DNA from: a virus
DNA: 29,346 nucleotides
IMG/VR virus record: IMGVR_UViG_3300043449_001143
Coordinates: 1-29,346 of that record
Direction: 5' to 3' (one strand)
Part shown: piece by piece, positions 1 to 29,346 of the stretch
Numbering within the stretch: the stretch's first letter is position 1
Layout: every line of letters begins with the position of its first letter
The notes under the pieces: model-generated
Told to the model about the DNA's origin: nothing
The model's input: the letters and a program-made list of their open reading frames with translations, nothing else
The model's database searches: none
Translations under genes and position numbers: made by a program

Positions 1-63
1 CCCGTATGGTTCTCGACTTTCTCTCGCTCGACCGGTACCTTGAACGCAAGCTAGGAGGCCGGA

Positions 64-432
64 ATGGCCATCGAAAGGCGTAAGCCACGCGATCGCGCAG
101 CCAACTACGGAAAGCTGCCCGACACGCAAGAGCGCGTGGAGTACCTGCGCGACGCGCTGCGGCAGGCCGAGGGCATGGTCACGAAGGCTGAAGAGGCACG
201 GTCGTGGCAGGCCGCAGTCAGCGCGAAGCGGCTCGCACTGCAGACGCGCGACGAGCTCGACCTCGCGCTCGCGAAGGCGTCCGCACCCGACGACACGATG
301 AGCGACGAGCAGCTCCTCGCCATCATGGTCCAGGCAATCGCCTCGCTTCCGACTCAGCACCTCGAGCGCCTCGAGGACGCGATCGGTATCCGACGTGGAG
401 CTCCTCCCGTGCGACTGGTTGAGACTGCTTGA
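64..432 (+). CDS. Small charged phage protein of unknown function, first gene before the packaging module
   Basis: This 122-residue protein starts at an ATG with a strong AGGAGG ribosome site about 6 bases upstream (around 52-57). The sequence is helical and charged, with an Arg/Lys-rich start (MAIERRKPRDRA), a middle section that looks like a helical hairpin, and a second helical section near residues 78-110. I see no catalytic motif. Its position upstream of the terminase would suit a small terminase subunit or an accessory packaging protein, but no clear helix-turn-helix is visible, so the function is left open. A promoter-like element follows it before the next gene, so it may belong to a transcript that starts further upstream, across the window edge. 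Confidence 0.7.
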   Translation: MAIERRKPRDRAANYGKLPDTQERVEYLRDALRQAEGMVTKAEEARSWQAAVSAKRLALQTRDELDLALAKASAPDDTMSDEQLLAIMVQAIASLPTQHLERLEDAIGIRRGAPPVRLVETA

Positions 433-714: not shown

Positions 715-887
715 GCCGCGGGGGCTCCCGCCCCGGCGCCGGCCGCCCTCGGAAGTTCTCCGAGGGGACCGCAGTGCCGCGCACGATCCGGCTTCCCGAG
801 ATCGTGTGGGTGGCGTTGCAGGAGCGCGCTGACGACGAGGGCGTGTCGCTGGCGCAGCTGGTAGCCTCGCTCGTGAGGCCGGCTTGA
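711..887 (+). CDS. Ribbon-helix-helix DNA-binding protein
   Basis: This 58-residue protein starts at a GTG that overlaps the stop of the previous gene by 4 bases (GTGA). The N-terminus has the basic motif GSRPGAGRPRK (about residues 5-15), common at the front of small phage DNA-binding proteins. A short strand follows (VPRTIRLP), then two helices (EIVWVALQERADDEGVS and LAQLVASLV). That order is the Arc/CopG-type ribbon-helix-helix pattern. Such proteins bind DNA as dimers, often at repeated operators, and the direct repeats at 439-481 are an obvious candidate target, though this is inference. A role in packaging as a small terminase-like protein is less likely but possible. Confidence 0.7.
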   Translation: MSRGGSRPGAGRPRKFSEGTAVPRTIRLPEIVWVALQERADDEGVSLAQLVASLVRPA

Positions 888-1090
888 CCAGCGCCCCCCT
901 GGAGTGTTCGGCCTGTCCAGGCTGGAGAGAGAAGGAGCGCGACCTGTTCAACATGCGCGGCACGTTCCGGATCATGGAGCGCGAGCAGATCGCCGAGTGG
1001 CTTAAGGACGAGAGCGAGCGGCTAGACGAGCCGGCGCTCTACGCCGCGGCAGAGCGCATCCTCGCGTTCGCGCACAAGGTGAAGCGGTGA
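884..1090 (+). CDS. Small hypothetical protein with one CxxC motif
   Basis: This is a 68-residue protein with a TTG start that overlaps the stop of the preceding gene by 4 bases. It has one CSAC motif near the N-terminus (Cys8 and Cys11), too few cysteines for a complete zinc site in a monomer. The C-terminal part is two helices (REQIAEWLKDESERL and EPALYAAAERILAFAH). This part resembles the C-terminal module of the two early proteins at 24767 and 25009. Its own stop overlaps the terminase start, so the chain from 532 to 2475 is translationally coupled. Function is unknown. The TTG start is chosen for the coupling, not for a strong ribosome site. Confidence 0.6.
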   Translation: MTSAPLECSACPGWREKERDLFNMRGTFRIMEREQIAEWLKDESERLDEPALYAAAERILAFAHKVKR

Positions 1091-2475
1091 ACCTCGCCTC
1101 TCTCGCCACGGCGACGAACACACTAGCGCGCCGGGCACACGCGGACCCGCTGGCCTACTTCCGTCCGACGCCACCGCAGCTCGCCTTCCTCTCAAGCAAC
1201 CATCCGATCCGCTTGCTCCGCGCCGGGAACCAGCTGGGCAAGACGTGGGCGGGGCTTGCCGACTGCATCTATCGGTGCCTCGGGTCGCACCCGTACACGC
1301 TCGTGAAGGCAGCGCCCATCGAGGCGTGGGTCGTTGTCGTGTCGTGGGAGCAGAGCCTGTCGGTACAGGCGAAGCTCTGGCAGCTGCTCCCCAAGGACAG
1401 TATCGATCCAGACTGCGAATACACCCCGGGGAGGGGCTTCCGTGGGCGCACACCCGTGGTTCGCTTCCGGAACGGATCGGTCCTTCGTATCCGCACGGTG
1501 AATCAGGGGGCGCTGGCGCTGGCGGGATCAACCATCGACTACGTCCTAATCGACGAGCCCCCGCCCGAAGAGATCTGGTCCGAGCTCGCGGCACGCGTGC
1601 TGCGCCAGCGAGGGCGCATCGCGATCACGCTTACGCCCATCGGGCTCTCCCTCGGGTGGCTGAAGAAGCTGGTCGAGGAGCAGGTGGTTCAGGATCTGCA
1701 CTTCCCGCTCACGGTCGAGAACACCACGCCTATCGGCGGGCGTCCTCTGCTCACGCGCGAGGACATCGACAAGCTCGAGGGGCAGGTGCTCCCTCAAGAA
1801 CGCGCCCAGCGCATCCACGGCGAGTGGGACAGCGGGTGGGTCGAGGGTCGCGTGTTCAAGATGTTTGACCCGACGACGCACGTCCGCGCCGATGTTCCGG
1901 CTGGCGAGGCGCTGATCGGCGTGGGCATTGATCACGGCACGGAGGCCGGAGCACAAGTCGCCGTCCTGACGGCGCTGGTCCGCGACGGCGGCGAGGGGCA
2001 CCCGAAGATCTGGGTGCTGGACCAGATCGTTTCGGACGGCATGACTACGCCGGACCAGGACGCCGCCGCGCTCCTCGCGATGCTCAAACGATGCGGGCTG
2101 CGCTGGGAGAACGTTGATCGGTGGGTAGGCGACCGCAAAGTGTACGGCAAGAGGAACGGCTCGCTCAAGTCGAACGCGATGCTCATGTCCTCGCTCGAGC
2201 GCGCGCTGAAGCTCCCCACGGGTAGCCTACCCTTCCGCATCCACACGGCGTATAAGCCTCGCGGCTCGGTGTTCGAGGGTTACCGGGTGCTGTCCGCGGC
2301 GATGCTCCGCAACGACTTCAGCATCAACCCGCGGTGCCGCGGCCTCATTGACGACCTACAGAAGTTCGACGGGCGAGAGGCCAGCGAGCATAAGCACAGC
2401 ATAGACAGCCTCAGGTACTGCCTCGAGCTTTACACCCGGCGACTTTATCAGCCAACTGCGATAAGACTAGGCTAG
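1087..2475 (+). CDS. terL: Terminase large subunit (DNA packaging ATPase and nuclease)
   Basis: This 462-residue protein should power DNA packaging into the prohead and cut the DNA. It starts at a GTG that overlaps the previous stop codon. The N-terminal ATPase half has Walker A AGNQLGKT at residues 46-53, Walker B VLIDEP at about 153-158 and the coupling motif TLTP at about 181-184. The C-terminal half looks like the RNase H-fold nuclease, with acidic residues in GIDHG (Asp282), VGDRK (Asp349) and HSIDSLRY (Asp440). Length and motif order fit the family well. It is followed by the portal gene, the usual order. The type of DNA end it makes cannot be told from the sequence. Confidence 0.95.
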   Translation: MNLASLATATNTLARRAHADPLAYFRPTPPQLAFLSSNHPIRLLRAGNQLGKTWAGLADCIYRCLGSHPYTLVKAAPIEAWVVVVSWEQSLSVQAKLWQLLPKDSIDPDCEYTPGRGFRGRTPVVRFRNGSVLRIRTVNQGALALAGSTIDYVLIDEPPPEEIWSELAARVLRQRGRIAITLTPIGLSLGWLKKLVEEQVVQDLHFPLTVENTTPIGGRPLLTREDIDKLEGQVLPQERAQRIHGEWDSGWVEGRVFKMFDPTTHVRADVPAGEALIGVGIDHGTEAGAQVAVLTALVRDGGEGHPKIWVLDQIVSDGMTTPDQDAAALLAMLKRCGLRWENVDRWVGDRKVYGKRNGSLKSNAMLMSSLERALKLPTGSLPFRIHTAYKPRGSVFEGYRVLSAAMLRNDFSINPRCRGLIDDLQKFDGREASEHKHSIDSLRYCLELYTRRLYQPTAIRLG

Positions 2476-2485
2476 TGGGGGGTCC

Positions 2486-4483
2486 ATGTACGCGTACACG
2501 AAGATGCCGCAGCCGCCGGCGCCGAGCAACCCCGACGAGGCCGCGCGCTGGGAACACACCCGGCATCGTCGCGCGCTGATGGAGGGACGCTGGCAGCGGC
2601 TCCTCGAGGACCGTCTCCAGATGCAGCTCGGCAGCACGCGCCGTCAGGCGTGGGGGGTGAGTGACATAAGCAGCAACCCGTTTAAAGTCGTGGCTACTGA
2701 GTTAGCCACCCTATATGACGCCCCCCCGGACGTTTCCCACAACACGGCGGGTGGAGCGGTCGACGCGCTGTGCGGGTCTAACGGGCTCATCGCGCGTGCC
2801 GGCCTCTGGCCGCAGATGGCACGGTTTCAGAGCATGGTCATCGCGCTTCGCGAGATGTGGATGCGGATCGATGTCGAGGACGATCGCCTGACCTACCGGC
2901 CGGTATCGCCCGACATGACGATCGCCGAGTCCGACCCGAGCCGGCCTACCGTCCCCCTGGCTTACGCCGAGATCCGTCTCCGGCACTTCCGCGGCGAAGC
3001 GGTGTGGCTGTGGGACGTGCTGGACATCCGCGACCCGTCGAACCCTTCCTACACGGTGCGTGTGGCGAAGGATGGAGGAATGGGCGAGGACGTGACCCTC
3101 GAGGTGCTCGGAGCCACCTACTCGGGCGAGGCGTACCCGTACCGTCGTGCGGACGGCACCCCGATCCTTCCGGTCGTGCTCTACCACGCGAGCCTTTACG
3201 GCGACCGGCTCTTCGACGCGTTCAACGGGATCGAGCTCTATGAAGGCTCGCTCAACCTCGCGGTTTACTACTCGTTCCTCGCGCACACGCTTCGCGATGC
3301 ATCGTTCCCGCAGCGGTGGGCGATTGGCGTGCGAGTGGCTGGCTCTGACATGGTGGACGGCGGCACACGCGGGCAGCGCGTCGAGGTCGTGACCGACCCG
3401 ACGACGATCCTGATGCTGGACGCTGCGATGGAACAGCAGCCACAGGTCGGACAGTTCAACGCGTCGGCCGACGTGGAGAAGCTCGAAGGGACGATCGCCG
3501 CCATCGCTCATCGCCTCGCCACCGACGCGGGCCTCTCGCCGAGCGAGATCCAGCGCACCAGCGGGAGCGCCAAGAGCGGCTACGCCATCAGTCTGTCCTC
3601 TGAGGGTAAGCGGACGGCACAGAGGAAGTACATCCTCCAGCAGCGCGATGCGGACGAGCGGCTCGTCGCGATCTCCGCGTCGCTGTTCAACCGGGCGACT
3701 GGATCGCAGTTCCCCGAGGGCGGCTACTCGGTCATGTACCGAGAGATCCCGCTCTCGCCCGAGGAGATGCAGAGCCGGCGCACCCACGCGCTCGAGATGA
3801 TGGCGGCTGGCCTGATGGACAAGGTCGAGGCGCTCCGTCTCTTCGGCAGCATGACCCACGAGGACGCCGTCGCGCGCCTCGAGCAGATCACGCTCGCGAA
3901 GGCCGCGGAGGCGCGCATGATGGAGAGCGCGCCGCCGGCCGTTGAAGAAGGAGAAACAGGAGGACGGCCGGCGACGGCCGCACCCGATGTATCCCCTGCA
4001 CACGCCGAGGCGATGGACGAAGTGGCCGAGGAACTAGACGCGGCCGAGGAGGCCCTCGCCGCTCTCGATCTGGACGAGGCGAACGCTGCCGTCGTGGCGG
4101 CAGTCATCGAGAGCCTCCGCGAGGCCCGCGGCTACCTCGGGCTCGGCCCGAAGGTCGAGGCTCAGGTCGAGATCCACGACGACATGGAAGAAGACGAGGC
4201 ACCACCCGAGGACGAGGCAGCACCCGAGGGTGTGGCGGCTCCAGAGGAGAGCGTGTCCGCCGCCGCTACGTCGGCTGGCGTCCCGGCTTCTGCGGTCGCG
4301 CTCAATGGAGCGCAGGTACAGGCCGCACAAGGCATCATCGCGAGCGTTGCGAAGGGCGAACTCCCGCGCGAGACGGGAGTGCAGATGCTGGTGCAGTTCT
4401 TCAACATGGCGCCCGACGCAGCCGACGCGCTTATGGGTGAGGTCGGACGGTCCTTCACCATCACGGCACCCGAGGCGAACTGA
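2486..4483 (+). CDS. Portal protein with a long acidic C-terminal part
   Basis: The portal forms the ring at one capsid vertex through which DNA enters and to which the tail attaches. This 665-residue protein follows the terminase and precedes the scaffold and capsid genes. The body to about residue 480 has the helical, mixed character of portals. The C-terminus, with LNGAQVQAAQGIIASVAKGE, resembles the end of many phage portals. Between them lies an unusually acidic and Ala/Pro/Glu-rich stretch around residues 485-595 (for example DDMEEDEAPPEDEAAPE), which makes the protein longer than the usual 450-550 residues. The start ATG has GGGGGG very close upstream; an in-frame ATG at 2504 is an alternative. 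Confidence 0.85.
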   Translation: MYAYTKMPQPPAPSNPDEAARWEHTRHRRALMEGRWQRLLEDRLQMQLGSTRRQAWGVSDISSNPFKVVATELATLYDAPPDVSHNTAGGAVDALCGSNGLIARAGLWPQMARFQSMVIALREMWMRIDVEDDRLTYRPVSPDMTIAESDPSRPTVPLAYAEIRLRHFRGEAVWLWDVLDIRDPSNPSYTVRVAKDGGMGEDVTLEVLGATYSGEAYPYRRADGTPILPVVLYHASLYGDRLFDAFNGIELYEGSLNLAVYYSFLAHTLRDASFPQRWAIGVRVAGSDMVDGGTRGQRVEVVTDPTTILMLDAAMEQQPQVGQFNASADVEKLEGTIAAIAHRLATDAGLSPSEIQRTSGSAKSGYAISLSSEGKRTAQRKYILQQRDADERLVAISASLFNRATGSQFPEGGYSVMYREIPLSPEEMQSRRTHALEMMAAGLMDKVEALRLFGSMTHEDAVARLEQITLAKAAEARMMESAPPAVEEGETGGRPATAAPDVSPAHAEAMDEVAEELDAAEEALAALDLDEANAAVVAAVIESLREARGYLGLGPKVEAQVEIHDDMEEDEAPPEDEAAPEGVAAPEESVSAAATSAGVPASAVALNGAQVQAAQGIIASVAKGELPRETGVQMLVQFFNMAPDAADALMGEVGRSFTITAPEAN

Positions 4484-4917
4484 TGCCCTTCATCTCGGAA
4501 CGTCAGCGCGACTATCTGAAGCGCGAGCACCCCGAGGTGTACCGGCGCTTCTTGCGCGACGAGCGCGCTATGGGCTTTGAGCTCCGCGCCCCCGTCGAGG
4601 TTGCAGCAGTCGCGAAGCGCGGGCTTGAGAACCGGCGCAAGTACGGACGAGGCGGGACGCTGGTCGGCGCGCGTCGCGCATCGCAGCTGGCGAGCCGCGA
4701 CGTGGTGAGCATCGACACGATCAAGCGCATGGTCGCGTACTTCGAGCGTCACGAGGTGGACCTCGAGGCTCCGGCCGCTCGCCCAGGGCATCCGCAGTAT
4801 CCGAGCGCAGGGCGCATCGCGTGGGATCTCTGGGGCGGCGCCCCCGGCCGTGCATGGGCGAAGCGTCAACTAGCAGTCTGGGAGCGCGTGCAAGCCGCAC
4901 GCGAGGAGGAAGAATGA
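4483..4917 (+). CDS. Conserved phage head-region protein of unknown function
   Basis: This is a 144-residue protein whose ATG overlaps the portal stop by one base (TGATG). Two parts can be seen. The N-terminal section (MPFISERQRDYLKREHPEVY) resembles a short conserved phage segment. The second section contains AKRGLENRRKYGRGGTLVG, then IKRMVAYFERHEVD, then YPSAGRIAWDLWGGAPGRAW. This conserved pattern turns up in phage head-module proteins of undetermined role. No protease triad is evident, so I do not call it a maturation protease. It also overlaps the next gene by 4 bases, which suggests tightly coupled expression with the portal and scaffold. Confidence 0.75.
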   Translation: MPFISERQRDYLKREHPEVYRRFLRDERAMGFELRAPVEVAAVAKRGLENRRKYGRGGTLVGARRASQLASRDVVSIDTIKRMVAYFERHEVDLEAPAARPGHPQYPSAGRIAWDLWGGAPGRAWAKRQLAVWERVQAAREEEE

Positions 4918-5477
4918 CCGAGGAAGGAACGACCACCACGACCACGACCACGGCAGAGGCCAACGACAACGGAGCGGGCGCCCGCATCCGGCAGCTCATC
5001 GCTCGCGTGAAGGAGCTCGAGGGGCGCGTCAGCGAACTGACGCCGCTCGCCGAGAGCGCCGAGAAGTACCGGGCGCAGATCGAGGAGGTCAAGGCCGCGA
5101 GCAAGGCCGAGCGCGAGGCGCTCCGCACCGAGCGCGAGATCGCCGCGGCTGGCATCACCGATGCCGAGGGCATCGACTACGTGCAGCACGCCTACAGCCG
5201 GCTCCCCAGCGAGGGCCGTCCCCCGCTCGCGGAGTGGCTCGCCAACAAGGACACGCTCCCGAAGGCAGTGCGCGCCTACCTGCCCGAGGCCGCACCCGCT
5301 GCGCCCGCAGCCCCTGCGGCTCCCGTTACGACGGCGATGCCGAAGGTCAACGCCGGCACGGTCACGCAGACGCCGCCGGCAACCACGGCGTGGACGCCCG
5401 AGGCGATCATGCGTATGACGCCCGCAGAGTTCAAGGCGAACGCAGCAGCGATCAAGGCAGCGTTCTCGGCCCCTTGA
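4914..5477 (+). CDS. Capsid scaffold protein
   Basis: Scaffold proteins guide capsid assembly from inside the prohead and then leave or are degraded. This 187-residue protein lies directly before the major capsid gene. The ATG at 4914 follows GAGGAGGA at 4903-4910 and overlaps the previous stop; an upstream in-frame start exists but lacks such a site. After a Thr-rich start there is a charged coiled coil (about residues 22-75: IRQLIARVKELEGRVSELT). An Ala/Pro-rich linker (EAAPAAPAAPAAPV) and a C-terminal helix (PAEFKANAAAIKAAF), which would contact the capsid protein, follow. This layout and position are typical of scaffolds. Confidence 0.85.
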   Translation: MTEEGTTTTTTTTAEANDNGAGARIRQLIARVKELEGRVSELTPLAESAEKYRAQIEEVKAASKAEREALRTEREIAAAGITDAEGIDYVQHAYSRLPSEGRPPLAEWLANKDTLPKAVRAYLPEAAPAAPAAPAAPVTTAMPKVNAGTVTQTPPATTAWTPEAIMRMTPAEFKANAAAIKAAFSAP

Positions 5478-25963: not shown

Positions 25964-26211
25964 TGCAGCTCTCTCTATTCTCGCAGCATCAGGCGATGGT
26001 CGATGGAGTGAAGCCACCGAGGCCACCGAGGCCACCGAGCTGGATGGATGAGATCCAGCCGTACGAGCATGACCTAAAGGCACGGATGCGCCACGTCCTC
26101 GCGTTCTGGACGCCGAAGAGCGAAGAGGAGTGGCTCGCCTGGGCGCCGCACCTCATCGGACCTCTACCAGAACGGTGGGAACGATACCGGGCGAGCTTCG
26201 CGGATGGTTGA
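25963..26211 (+). CDS. Small early protein with a PPR repeat linker
   Basis: This 82-residue protein starts one base inside the preceding stop, with AAGGAGAAGG just upstream. After MQLSLFSQHQAMVDG comes a short repeat KPPRPPRPPSW encoded by three near-identical 9-base units (CCACCGAGG). A Trp-rich helical section follows (RMRHVLAFWTPKSEEEWLAW, HLIGPLPERWERYRASF). The N-terminal QLSLF pentapeptide resembles the clamp-binding consensus QLxLF, so contact with the host DNA polymerase sliding clamp is possible. That motif is short, and the assignment is tentative. Confidence 0.6.
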   Translation: MQLSLFSQHQAMVDGVKPPRPPRPPSWMDEIQPYEHDLKARMRHVLAFWTPKSEEEWLAWAPHLIGPLPERWERYRASFADG

Positions 26212-26237
26212 CGCGCTCTGACGGATGCTGTTAGCGT
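26208..26237 (+). promoter_or_regulatory. Promoter-like site for the primase-helicase gene
   Basis: TTGACG (26208-26213) overlaps the end of the preceding gene. After 18 bp comes TAGCGT (26232-26237), with TA...T retained. The geometry matches the capsid promoter. Transcription would start near 26243, exactly at the 5' edge of the structured leader. Confidence 0.5.
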
Positions 26238-26241
26238 AGAA

Positions 26242-26323
26242 CTGTCCTGCACCGGGACGCGGGCGGCCACCCGCACGCGGGGGCATCATGCCCCCGCGTC
26301 CTCCCCCGGTCGGACAGGTGCAG
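26242..26323 (+). promoter_or_regulatory. Structured leader upstream of the primase-helicase gene
   Basis: The 114-bp gap can fold as a three-way junction. The outer stem pairs CTGTCC (26242-26247) with GGACAG (26312-26317) and ACCGGG (26251-26256) with CCCGGT (26305-26310). Inside it lie a 5-bp hairpin (GCGGG 26259-26263 with CCCGC 26270-26274) and a perfect 12-bp stem (26275-26286 with 26288-26299). A competing pairing joins CTGCACC (26247-26253) to GGTGCAG (26317-26323), covering the only ribosome-site-like bases. This suggests a possible RNA switch or a DNA cruciform; neither is proven. Confidence 0.5.
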
Positions 26324-26325
26324 AC

Positions 26326-28647
26326 ATGACGGTAAGCATTATGGGCCAGAAGGCCCAGGTCTACGCGCGCAAGAAGGGATGGAAGGTCTTTCCGCTTCGC
26401 GAGCGCGAGAAGATGCCCGCGACGGCAAACGGATTCAAGGACGCCACGAGCGACCTTGAGGAGATCGCGCGCCTGTGGGGCGACCGCGAGTACAACATCG
26501 GGCTTGCAACGGGCGAAGGATCCGGCGTGTGGGTGTTCGACGTGGACGGAGACGCGCCGAAGGGCGGCGGTCTGACCGGACCCGAAGCCCTCGCGCTACT
26601 CGAGGAGCGCCACGGCGCACTGCCGCCTACGCTCATGGTCAAGACCGGGAACGGAGCGCACTACTACTACCGCATGCCGGTCGGGCGTGACCTTCGCAAC
26701 CGCGCACGCATCACGATCGACGGTCAGCGTACCGGCCTCGATGTGCGAGCCGATGGCGGCTATGTCGTGCTGCCTCCCAGCGTGCATCCGAATGGTCAGG
26801 CGTATGCCTTCGTCAAGGGCTGCAACGAGGTGAGCGATGCACCAGACTGGCTGCTCGACGCGCTCTACCCGCGCAAACCGGAGCCGGCGCCGAAGCCCAA
26901 TACGACGCCCTCGGCGACGGACGAGGACATAGCGACTGGTGCCGAGGTGCTTCAGATCGCCGCGCAGCGAATCCTTACCTGCACCGGCAGTCGGCACGAT
27001 GCGATCTATCGGGAGAGCGCCGTTATCGGTGAACTCGTCGCGGGTGGGTGCATCGACCGAGGAGCGGCGACCGCTGCTCTGGTCGCAGCTGGGATCGAGG
27101 CAGGGAAGCCAGAGGTCGAGGTGCGCCGCACGGTACGCGATGGCCTCGACCGTGGCGCACAGCATCCGCGACGCTTCTCGGATGCGCCGTCTGCGATCCC
27201 GGCGACGCTCTACCGACCGAGCGACGTAGGCAACGCCGCGCGCCTCGTCGACCGCTTCGGTGGCGATGTCCGCTGGTGCGACACCGCCCAGGGAGAGGGC
27301 TGGCTCGTGTGGGACGGCAAGCGATGGTCACCGGACAGCATGCGCCGTGTCGATGCCATGTCCCGCGAGGTTGCGGTCGATGTGGTGACCTACGCCGCGG
27401 AACTTCAGGAGCGCGCTCGAGCAGCATCGGCCGCAGCCGGACAGACGACGACCCCGGCACAGCAGCGCGCCCTGGCGCAACTCCGCAGCGAAGCGAAGTC
27501 ATGGATGCTGTGGGCGCGACAGAGCGAGATGGTGTCCCACCTGTCAGCCGTGGCGAAGGTGGCGCGTACCGACGTGGCTATCGCCCACGAGGCCCTCGAT
27601 GCGGACCCGTGGCTGCTCAACACGCAGAACGGGATCGTTGACCTTCGCAACGACGCGCAGCGCCCGCACGAGCGCGAGGCGCGCATGACGAAGATCGCTG
27701 GGACGGAGATGGGCAACCGGTACGGATGTCCGACGTGGGTGGCGTTCCTGACGCGCATCATGGGCGGCGATACCGAGATGGTGTCCTTCATCCAGCGGGT
27801 CGTGGGCTACTGCCTCACGGGCAGCACCCGTGAGCAGTGCCTGTTCATCCTTTACGGGAACGGGAGCAACGGGAAGAGTACCTTCCTCGACACGCTGCGC
27901 GCCGTCATGGGTGACTACGCCATGCACGCACGCGCGGAGACGTTCGTTCGGAACAGCAAAGGCGGCATCCCGAACGACATCGCTGCACTGCGTGGGGCGC
28001 GCCTTGTGACCGCTTCCGAGCCGGATCAGGGAGAGCAGTTGGACGAGGGCCTCGTGAAGGAGATGACCGGCGATGCCGCCATGACGGCGCGCTTCATGCG
28101 CTCGGAGTTCTTCACGTTCACTCCGAACTTCAAGGTTCTTCTCGCGACGAACCATCGCCCGATCATCCGGGGAACGGACAACGGTATCTGGCGCCGCATC
28201 CGGCTCGTGCCGTTCACGGAGACCATCGCCGACCACGAGAAGGACCGCGACCTCGGGGCGAAGCTCGCAGCCGAAGCACCGGGCATCCTCGCCTGGGGCG
28301 TGCAGGGATGCATGGAGTGGCAGCGCATCGGACTCGCGCCGCCCGCGGCCGTCCTCGACGCCACGCAGAAGTATCGCGACGACATGGACCTCCTCTCGGA
28401 GTTCCTCGGCGAGAAGTGCTACTTCACGGGTTCGGTGGGGAACACGGCGCTCTACCAAGCGTTCAGCGCGTGGTCGGTGGCGAACGGCGAGCGCCCTCGA
28501 TCCCACAAGTGGCTCACGCGGAACCTCGAGGACCGAGGGTACACGAAGGATCCGAGCCGCACGAACGGACGTGGCTGGATCGGTCTGTCGCTGCGAGACG
28601 AGGTCTCTGCGCCATCGAGGGGCGACTCCCGCGGCTACTGGTCCTAG
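26326..28647 (+). CDS. Replication protein: prim-pol primase fused to SF3 helicase
   Basis: This 773-residue protein combines priming and unwinding for phage DNA replication. The N-terminal prim-pol domain (about 5-180) has the catalytic DVD in VFDVDG (Asp72, Asp74), the HYYYR segment (about 112-116) and GLDVRADGGYVVLPPS. A linker and a D5-type middle region follow. The helicase has Walker A GNGSNGKST (511-519), Walker B LVTASE (560-565), sensor ATN (607-609) and arginine finger GIWRRIRLVPF. The C-terminal domain (from about 690) includes the winged-helix-like section common to P4-type primases. It starts weakly (AGGTG upstream) after a structured leader. A candidate origin follows immediately. 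Confidence 0.92.
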   Translation: MTVSIMGQKAQVYARKKGWKVFPLREREKMPATANGFKDATSDLEEIARLWGDREYNIGLATGEGSGVWVFDVDGDAPKGGGLTGPEALALLEERHGALPPTLMVKTGNGAHYYYRMPVGRDLRNRARITIDGQRTGLDVRADGGYVVLPPSVHPNGQAYAFVKGCNEVSDAPDWLLDALYPRKPEPAPKPNTTPSATDEDIATGAEVLQIAAQRILTCTGSRHDAIYRESAVIGELVAGGCIDRGAATAALVAAGIEAGKPEVEVRRTVRDGLDRGAQHPRRFSDAPSAIPATLYRPSDVGNAARLVDRFGGDVRWCDTAQGEGWLVWDGKRWSPDSMRRVDAMSREVAVDVVTYAAELQERARAASAAAGQTTTPAQQRALAQLRSEAKSWMLWARQSEMVSHLSAVAKVARTDVAIAHEALDADPWLLNTQNGIVDLRNDAQRPHEREARMTKIAGTEMGNRYGCPTWVAFLTRIMGGDTEMVSFIQRVVGYCLTGSTREQCLFILYGNGSNGKSTFLDTLRAVMGDYAMHARAETFVRNSKGGIPNDIAALRGARLVTASEPDQGEQLDEGLVKEMTGDAAMTARFMRSEFFTFTPNFKVLLATNHRPIIRGTDNGIWRRIRLVPFTETIADHEKDRDLGAKLAAEAPGILAWGVQGCMEWQRIGLAPPAAVLDATQKYRDDMDLLSEFLGEKCYFTGSVGNTALYQAFSAWSVANGERPRSHKWLTRNLEDRGYTKDPSRTNGRGWIGLSLRDEVSAPSRGDSRGYWS

Positions 28648-28874
28648 TAGGACACTTCGTAGGACACATCGCTACCTTCTACGATGTAGTCCACGACGAC
28701 ATTAGGACACATGGGACACTTTCTTTCGACATCATTCCCGCATATGAGAATGGTATACAAAGCGTAAACCCCACGTATACGCAGAGATCATACTCGGATC
28801 TCCTGTCCTATGTGTCCTAATGTGCGCCGGCACGCGATCCTAGAAGGCGGCAATGTGTCCCATCAACTGTCCTA
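28648..28874. repeat. Inverted array of eight TAGGACAC-like repeats, candidate replication origin
   Basis: The gene-free 242 bp after the primase-helicase hold four repeats in one orientation: TAGGACAC at 28648, 28660 and 28703 and TGGGACAC at 28712. Four more lie in the opposite orientation: TGTCCTA at 28804, GTGTCCTA at 28812, GTGTCCCA at 28855 and TGTCCTA at 28868. They flank a core (28720-28803) visibly richer in A and T than the rest of the window, with two GTATAC palindromes. An extra GTCCTA at 28641-28646 makes a palindrome with the first copy. Symmetric iterons, an A+T-rich core and a neighbouring initiator-type gene are typical of an origin. Operators for an early regulator are the alternative. 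Confidence 0.65.
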
Positions 28875-28889
28875 GAGTGGAGGCAAGTC

Positions 28890-29174
28890 ATGCGAATGAA
28901 AGAGAGCGTCAAGATCCATCAGGTCATCCCGGCCGCGCCGGGTACGAGGGCGGTCCTTGAGGTGCTGAATGCTGACGCCACCAAGGGGCGCATGATCGAA
29001 CCGATCATCCTCTTTGCCCTGGTCGAGGATCTCGAGGAAGGCGGCAACCGGTTCGTGATCCCGATGGACGAGATGGGCGGATGGTTCGAGGCCGACGTGA
29101 ACACCAACTACGTCAAGGCGATCCTCGCACCGGGTCAAGAGCCAGAGCCGTGGATGATGGACACGAACACCTAG
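28890..29174 (+). CDS. Small hypothetical protein beyond the candidate origin
   Basis: This is a 94-residue protein with GGAGG at about 28878-28882 and an ATG at 28890. Mixed strands and turns (KIHQVIPAAPGTRAVLEVLN, PIILFALVEDLEEGGNRFVI) lead to an acidic Pro-rich end (GQEPEPWMMDTNT). It contains no known motif. It is the last gene of the rightward set and lies just past the repeats, whose last copy is within 16 bases of its start codon. A regulator bound to that copy would affect its expression. Confidence 0.65.
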   Translation: MRMKESVKIHQVIPAAPGTRAVLEVLNADATKGRMIEPIILFALVEDLEEGGNRFVIPMDEMGGWFEADVNTNYVKAILAPGQEPEPWMMDTNT

Positions 29175-29346
29175 GGTGCGCGTTCCGCGACCCCACGTTA
29201 AGGGATCGATGCGTGGATCTTCACGCGAACGTAGGGATCGGCGTCCCGGCAATGGTGCCGGGCGCCACTCCCGGCGACAGGAACGGGGCTAAACGCGCAC
29301 AAAAGGCGTGTATACTGACCGACACCCCCCCCGACCCCGTTAGGCT
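29175..29346 (+). promoter_or_regulatory. Gene-free end region with a hairpin and a -10-like box
   Basis: No gene was found in these 172 bases. CCCGGCA (29245-29251) pairs with TGCCGGG (29256-29262) around ATGG, a possible terminator for the early operon without a T run. The octamer AGGGATCG occurs twice near 29210-29240. TATACT at 29311-29316 is a good -10 box pointing rightward, but no -35 match precedes it. If the molecule is circular, this would feed the late operon at position 64. Eight Cs follow. Confidence 0.4.

Follow-up and report, generated by a model that had tools for sequence, protein, structure and literature searches.

An Exactly Mirrored Iteron Array Behind a PrimPol–SF3 Gene Is a Candidate Replication Origin of a Small Tailed Phage

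The Locus

The stretch of DNA analysed here (the window) is a virus record of 29,346 bases. Its proteins include a terminase, a tape measure protein, an endolysin, a RusA resolvase, and a repressor-like protein according to PHROGs; it is a small tailed phage. Microbacterium was considered as the host and rejected, because the sole match in the genome collection had 26% identity, which is too weak. The contigs of the window (1–15 and 29310–29346) and of its relative L003 (7740–7778) stop within a few bases of a common C-rich site, ACCCCCCCCGACCCCG, and the contig of another relative, L004, reads straight through it. This site, which lies about 550 bases from the array described below, is a probable cohesive end of the genome.

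The features of the replication locus are as follows:

26241–26325, plus strand: leader of the initiator gene, a long hairpin outside the origin (RNA fold −53.6 kcal/mol, z −3.75)
26326–28647, plus strand: replication initiator of 773 aa (Pfam, AlphaFold2, VIA-align)
28393–28596, plus strand: region coding for a predicted RFX-like winged helix, candidate iteron reader (AlphaFold2, Foldseek, exchange as a block relative to L003)
28648–28655, plus strand: iteron A, TAGGACAC (motif match)
28660–28667, plus strand: iteron B, TAGGACAC (motif match)
28679–28685, plus strand: element X of the left arm, CTACGAT (CTASGAT across all relatives), kept in all relatives and mirroring 28837–28843
28703–28710, plus strand: iteron C, TAGGACAC (motif match)
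28712–28719, plus strand: iteron D, TGGGACAC, 9 bp from C (motif match)
28723–28800, no strand: A+T-richer core between the arms, candidate DNA-unwinding element (base composition, duplex stability)
28803–28810, minus strand: iteron D′, TAGGACAG (motif match)
28812–28819, minus strand: iteron C′, TAGGACAC (motif match)
28837–28843, minus strand: element X′, CTAGGAT, mirror of CTACGAT (mirror position)
28855–28862, minus strand: iteron B′, TGGGACAC (motif match)
28867–28874, minus strand: iteron A′, TAGGACAG (motif match)

Structure of the Array

An earlier note on this DNA had described an eight-copy motif in two opposed clusters of four, and this arrangement is real. With at most one mismatch, TAGGACAC was found on the plus strand at 28648, 28660, 28703, and 28712 and on the minus strand at 28803, 28812, 28855, and 28867. 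Four of these eight sites are exact (28648, 28660, 28703, and 28812) and each of the other four has one mismatch. Counted from the first, the eight GGACA-centred sites have offsets of 0, 12, 55, and 64 in one arm and 158, 167, 210, and 222 in the other, which is an exact mirror about position 28761, with all four pair sums equal to 57522. There is also a fifth mirrored element, CTACGAT at 28679–28685 and ATCCTAG at 28837–28843 (element X), which had been missed before.

How far can such an arrangement be attributed to chance? Sixteen bare matches to TAGGACAC with at most one mismatch were found in the window against 13.7 expected, so the motif itself is not rare. The packing is another matter, with all eight GGACA words lying within 235 bases; elsewhere in the window no stretch of this length has more than four, and the maximum in 200 Markov simulations was five. 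When the four minus-strand sites were placed at random, an exact mirror appeared in 0.0003 of the trials. The signal that exceeds chance is thus the clustering and the exact mirror, not the motif count.

The first iteron starts at 28648, the base directly 3′ of the initiator stop codon. The block was said to be gene-free and to lie immediately behind the prim-pol/SF3 gene, and we agree: it is bounded by the stop at 28647 and by the start of the next gene at 28890, and contains no likely gene. A single mechanical open reading frame (28308–28820), in another frame of the primase gene, extends into it.

The core of 78 bp (28723–28800) has 55% A+T, compared with 34% genome-wide. A melting profile of the window, based on nearest-neighbour energies, placed the lowest duplex stability at the array block for window sizes of 60, 100, 150, and 235. 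Two GTATAC hexamers lie 24 bp apart in the core (28753–28782), and a third is at 29310, near the genome end. Cumulative GC skew climbs almost throughout the window (minimum at 570, maximum at 29262) and gives no origin signal, its turn being uninformative. The DnaA box TTAT[CA]CA[CA]A has zero matches across the whole window, and neither promoter-like nor terminator-like sites were found in a search near the array.

The Initiator and Its Leader

The initiator includes PrimPol (aa 11–175), D5_N (aa 304–479), and SF3 helicase (aa 509–624) domains according to Pfam, with a DUF5906 match as well; its N-terminal domain is Prim-Pol PF09250 (E 3.6e-42). The AlphaFold2 model of aa 296–773, made from an alignment of 64 sequences, has a pLDDT of 89.6. 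Its best matches in VIA-align were African swine fever virus PrimPol (Z 31.5) and the SaPI5 primase-helicase (7om0/7ola, Z 30.6), followed by poxvirus D5/E5, and the SaPI5 match takes in the C-terminal part. In this part AlphaFold2 places a winged helix at about aa 690–757, with helices at aa 706–719 and 727–736 and a wing strand at aa 750–752. For the C-terminal domain alone, the best Foldseek match was the RFX1 DNA-binding domain on DNA (1dp7, E 4e-3, probability 1.00). The predicted fold of the C-terminus is thus an RFX-like winged helix.

The leader carries TGTCC and GGACA, which had been taken as a hint that one protein might recognise both places. These words form the two outer strands of a single strong hairpin, and the hint fails because this hairpin is identical in the window and in L003 although the iteron flanks of the two differ. 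The hairpin is present in all six aligned sequences, and the pair CCTGCACC/GGTGCAG has become CCTCCACC/GGTGGAG in L004, L059, and L060, a change which looks compensatory. The leader thus looks like a structured RNA leader rather than a second iteron site, possibly for translational control. Its 3′ strand adjoins the primase start codon. No Rfam match was obtained, the leader included, and no tRNA was found.

Conservation in Relatives

Loss of the repeats in related phages was the first result named beforehand as telling against an origin. Among relatives of the primase gene taken from IMG/VR, we found the array behind the same gene in eight, and it travels with the prim-pol gene. Five of them (L003, L004, L005, L059, and L060) have left-arm offsets identical to those of the window. 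In L059 the left arm alone is seen, as the contig ends after it; L060 lacks one base of the right arm and L004 one base of the core.

The three other relatives differ in spacing. On each side of the L062 array, the innermost site is shifted by one base. L262 carries 5+5 iterons, with one extra at each outer side, and all five pair sums are 242. L267 has about one helical turn added per arm, again on both sides, its inner pairs being 20 bp apart instead of 9 and its pair sums 262–263. These changes hit both arms at once, and therefore the symmetry has been kept while the spacing changed. Throughout the relatives, the two innermost sites are 92–95 bases apart.

Linkage of the Array to the Initiator C-Terminus

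A further relative, L007, has 93–97% DNA identity to the window on both flanks, and the segment matching 25964–28896 of the window has been replaced. The replacement replicon (about 818–5002) comprises separate genes for PrimPol and a VapE-type helicase, behind which lies a GGTGGCACC repeat array. The window and L007 share the gene that follows the array, and this gene differs in L003, L004, and L060. Since this gene varies independently of the array, and since L007 swaps replication gene and array together, the array goes with the replication gene and not with its downstream neighbour. The exchange also bears on the two-HTH early protein, which the earlier note had named as a possible binder of the repeats. 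In L007, which has an unrelated array, the gene for this protein is 97% identical, and this makes the protein an unlikely binder.

Which part of the initiator follows the iterons? Between the window and L003, protein identity is 98.9% in PrimPol, 100% in the linker, and 98.0% in SF3, compared with 72.9% in the last 120 residues. The C-terminus of the window is closer to those of L059 (83.9%) and L060 (79.7%), though both are more distant elsewhere in the protein. The bases before GGACA are mostly TA or TG in the window, L059, and L060 and C throughout in L003, L004, and L005, so that iteron flanks group as the C-termini do. Flank agreement between the two arms within a phage was 0.70 against a permutation mean of 0.365, a value reached by 4 of 120 permutations in a test that takes in two dialect-sharing phages.

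As seen in these sequence comparisons, the array is co-inherited with the initiator gene and above all with its C-terminus. Since the C-terminal region adjoins the array, plain linkage could also explain their joint exchange. A simple residue-to-base code (Asn or Ala in NLEDRG/ALTDRG matched to purine or C before GGACA) fitted the first phages and was rejected, being broken by L262, which has an L003-like helix (RALTDRGYKQDP) yet GGGGAC iterons, and by L267 with its mixed flanks.

Survey of SF3 Loci

We surveyed 80 SF3 genes with enough downstream DNA, taking control windows from the same loci. Inverted 7-mer arrays with at least five copies were found behind 38 of the 80 genes and in 9 of 515 control windows (Fisher p about 4e-29); the loci are partly related, and therefore 38 of 80 is not a count of independent events. 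The SF3-associated arrays sit 3′ of the genes and hardly ever upstream, and their motif words vary among phages. Neighbouring copies on the same strand are most often 9–10 bp apart (35 of 66, from 36 distinct arrays). The phages T25, BPP-1, AcaML1, and GMA4 each carry their own array. Exact mirror order was rejected as a general law, being significant in only 3 of the 38 arrays; it is special to the family of the window and a few others.

A search by geometry alone (GGACA-4-GGACA-72..100-TGTCC-4-TGTCC) gave at least 120 stretches, many of the loci being near-duplicates. Among the matches listed, 63 genes of at least 200 aa have their 3′ end towards the array, with Prim-Pol in 30, DUF5906 in 25, AAA_25 in 24, and D5_N in 16. 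The scrambled word GAGCA in the same geometry gave 32 stretches, where five of the six large neighbour genes were again PrimPol/SF3 or VapE. The scrambled word therefore served poorly as a negative control, and the geometry counts for more than the word itself; GGACA as a special word was abandoned, though it may be commoner than others. Two of the genes whose 3′ ends adjoin GAGCA arrays of like geometry (L269 and L280) encode PrimPol-SF3 proteins with a C-terminal match to Pfam RFX_DNA_binding. Arrays of the TAGGACAC type also adjoin other replication helicases, namely AAA_25 in L046 (4036–4270), VapE in L013 (1015–1260), and SF3 in L031 (470–700).

Comparison with Known Origins

In SaPI origins, an A+T-rich stretch of about 80 bp is flanked by two sets of iterons. 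The window with its 4+4 iterons and 78-bp core resembles SaPI in this general layout, and in both the short iterons lie directly 3′ of the initiator gene. The SaPI5 initiator also combines primase, D5_N/SF3 helicase, and a C-terminal DNA-binding domain, which in the window is a predicted one. In contrast to SaPI, the window is a 29-kb tailed phage of its own and not a satellite, and has exact mirror order and element X. SaPI Rep is thought to bind as two hexamers (PMC7581432).

In phage P4, the winged-helix initiator alpha binds repeats, then unwinds and primes (PMC4234260). The P4 crr resembles our array in that type 1 repeats of 8 bp follow the alpha gene directly and occur in both orientations, and the spacings of 9 and 43 bp are common to both. 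However, alpha has a Toprim primase whereas the initiator of the window has an archaeo-eukaryotic PrimPol, and the P4 origin is split into ori1 and crr while the window has one compact array. In SCCmec, the isolated C-terminal domain of the D5-type helicase Cch2 binds short repeats that follow the operon of the helicase itself (PMC7581432); here there are only three AAGTG iterons, in direct repeat, and the primase is a separate CCPol-MP pair. Unlike a classical iteron plasmid or a DnaA-dependent origin, the window has no DnaA-box match beside the iterons or elsewhere. The candidate start site follows a design that is already known from satellite phages and pathogenicity islands, and the survey shows this design to be widespread.

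The Sulfolobus plasmid pRN1 also has a PrimPol-SF3-winged helix protein (ORF904), and the essential site follows the gene of this protein. The published stem of pRN1 (L139, about 5086–5185) contains inverted GGACA pairs 9 bp apart (TTGGACACTATGGACATAA), as in iterons C–D of the window, though they point away from the core and those of the window point towards it. In BPP-1, which we take to be a close relative of BIP-1, AACGAGGCA pairs are likewise 9 bp apart (L050, 5338–5454). Berkner et al. 2014 proposed that PrimPol-SF3-winged-helix proteins use a stem-loop and that pRN1 and BIP-1 lack origin iterons (PMC4234260). The pairs found in these stems suggest that it has been difficult to distinguish inverted iterons from stems. 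The pRN1 data themselves, in which a stem mutation was rescued by restored symmetry and sequence-specific binding was not found (PMC4234260), speak for a stem in pRN1. For this reason, and because its sites face the other way, we do not claim pRN1 as explained.

Alternative Readings of the Array

A stem-loop origin of the kind proposed for pRN1 and BIP-1 would also fit part of the evidence here, the initiator reading an extruded hairpin (cruciform) of the complementary arms instead of duplex iterons. The arms (28648–28718 and 28804–28874) are 75% complementary and pair well as single strands (DNA fold z −6.2), and spacer complementarity is slightly higher within phages than between them (0.58 and 0.53). 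However, arm-to-arm matching is concentrated in the iterons (0.83) and element X (0.77), against 0.49 in the spacers, and the iteron flanks co-change on both arms far more than the spacers do. Moreover, many SF3 arrays have no exact mirror order and therefore could not form one stem. These patterns make a stem-loop improbable in the window.

The iterons may be supposed to control only copy number or initiator expression, in an incompatibility-like way, with the true origin elsewhere. P4 offers a precedent, since type 1 repeats are present both in crr, behind the alpha gene, and in ori1, at a distance of several kb. Within the window, though, the array is the only GGACA cluster, and the easily melted core lies in the array itself, which renders this reading quite improbable.

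Could a phage repressor or activator use the array as operators, for the downstream gene (28890–29174) or for the primase operon? The array does occupy the intergenic gap ahead of that gene, and mirrored sites also suit dimeric regulators. Yet the downstream gene is not constant among the relatives that keep the array, and in L007 it is retained with another one; the search for promoter-like and terminator-like sites nearby was negative; and like arrays stand at the 3′ end of SF3 genes generally. We consider regulation of this kind very improbable.

Inverted-arm repeat arrays occur at attachment, partition, and recombination sites, and P4 attP has arm repeats, but the array can hardly be an attP, centromere, or resolution site, given that the scanned proteins of the window include no recognised integrase, ParA, or recombinase and that the array moves with the replicon module (L007) and with SF3 genes across phages.

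A Candidate Origin and Its Possible Mode of Action

The array is very probably the phage replication origin, as the earlier note had proposed, and the origin of a SaPI5/P4-like self-loading initiator encoded directly upstream. Its conservation, its movement together with the prim-pol gene, its position in the most meltable DNA, and the like arrays behind SF3 primase genes all support this reading. As such a candidate, it is another origin of the SaPI5/P4-like class, with unusually exact symmetry.

The C-terminal winged helix of the PrimPol-SF3 protein would bind the GGACA-centred iterons of each arm, which are paired about one helical turn apart. One hexamer would then build on each arm, the two having opposite polarity, and the two rings would melt the A+T-rich core. 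The SF3 motors would unwind outward and the PrimPol domain would prime both strands for the host polymerase. Binding, loading of a double hexamer, and melting are inferred here; one hexamer per arm would make the origin bidirectional, and it is the symmetry that suggests such firing.

A general origin grammar of PrimPol/SF3 replicons, and of some VapE and AAA_25 ones, is also conceivable, though we lean slightly against it. Iterons would be paired 9–10 bp apart and inverted around a core of 70–100 bp, the word being free and the geometry kept, and the stem-loops of pRN1 and the BPP-1-like phages would be such inverted pairs. In the family of the window, the two-fold symmetry would have been kept via concerted spacing changes because two hexamers load face to face.

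For a large group of phages, in most of which the start of replication is unmapped, the array provides a precise candidate origin. The window and L003 form a natural experiment, which points to the C-terminal domain as the origin reader. If the geometry-based rule is true, it would allow origins to be located in metagenomic phages, and a direct test of the disputed pRN1 stem-loop origin would become possible.
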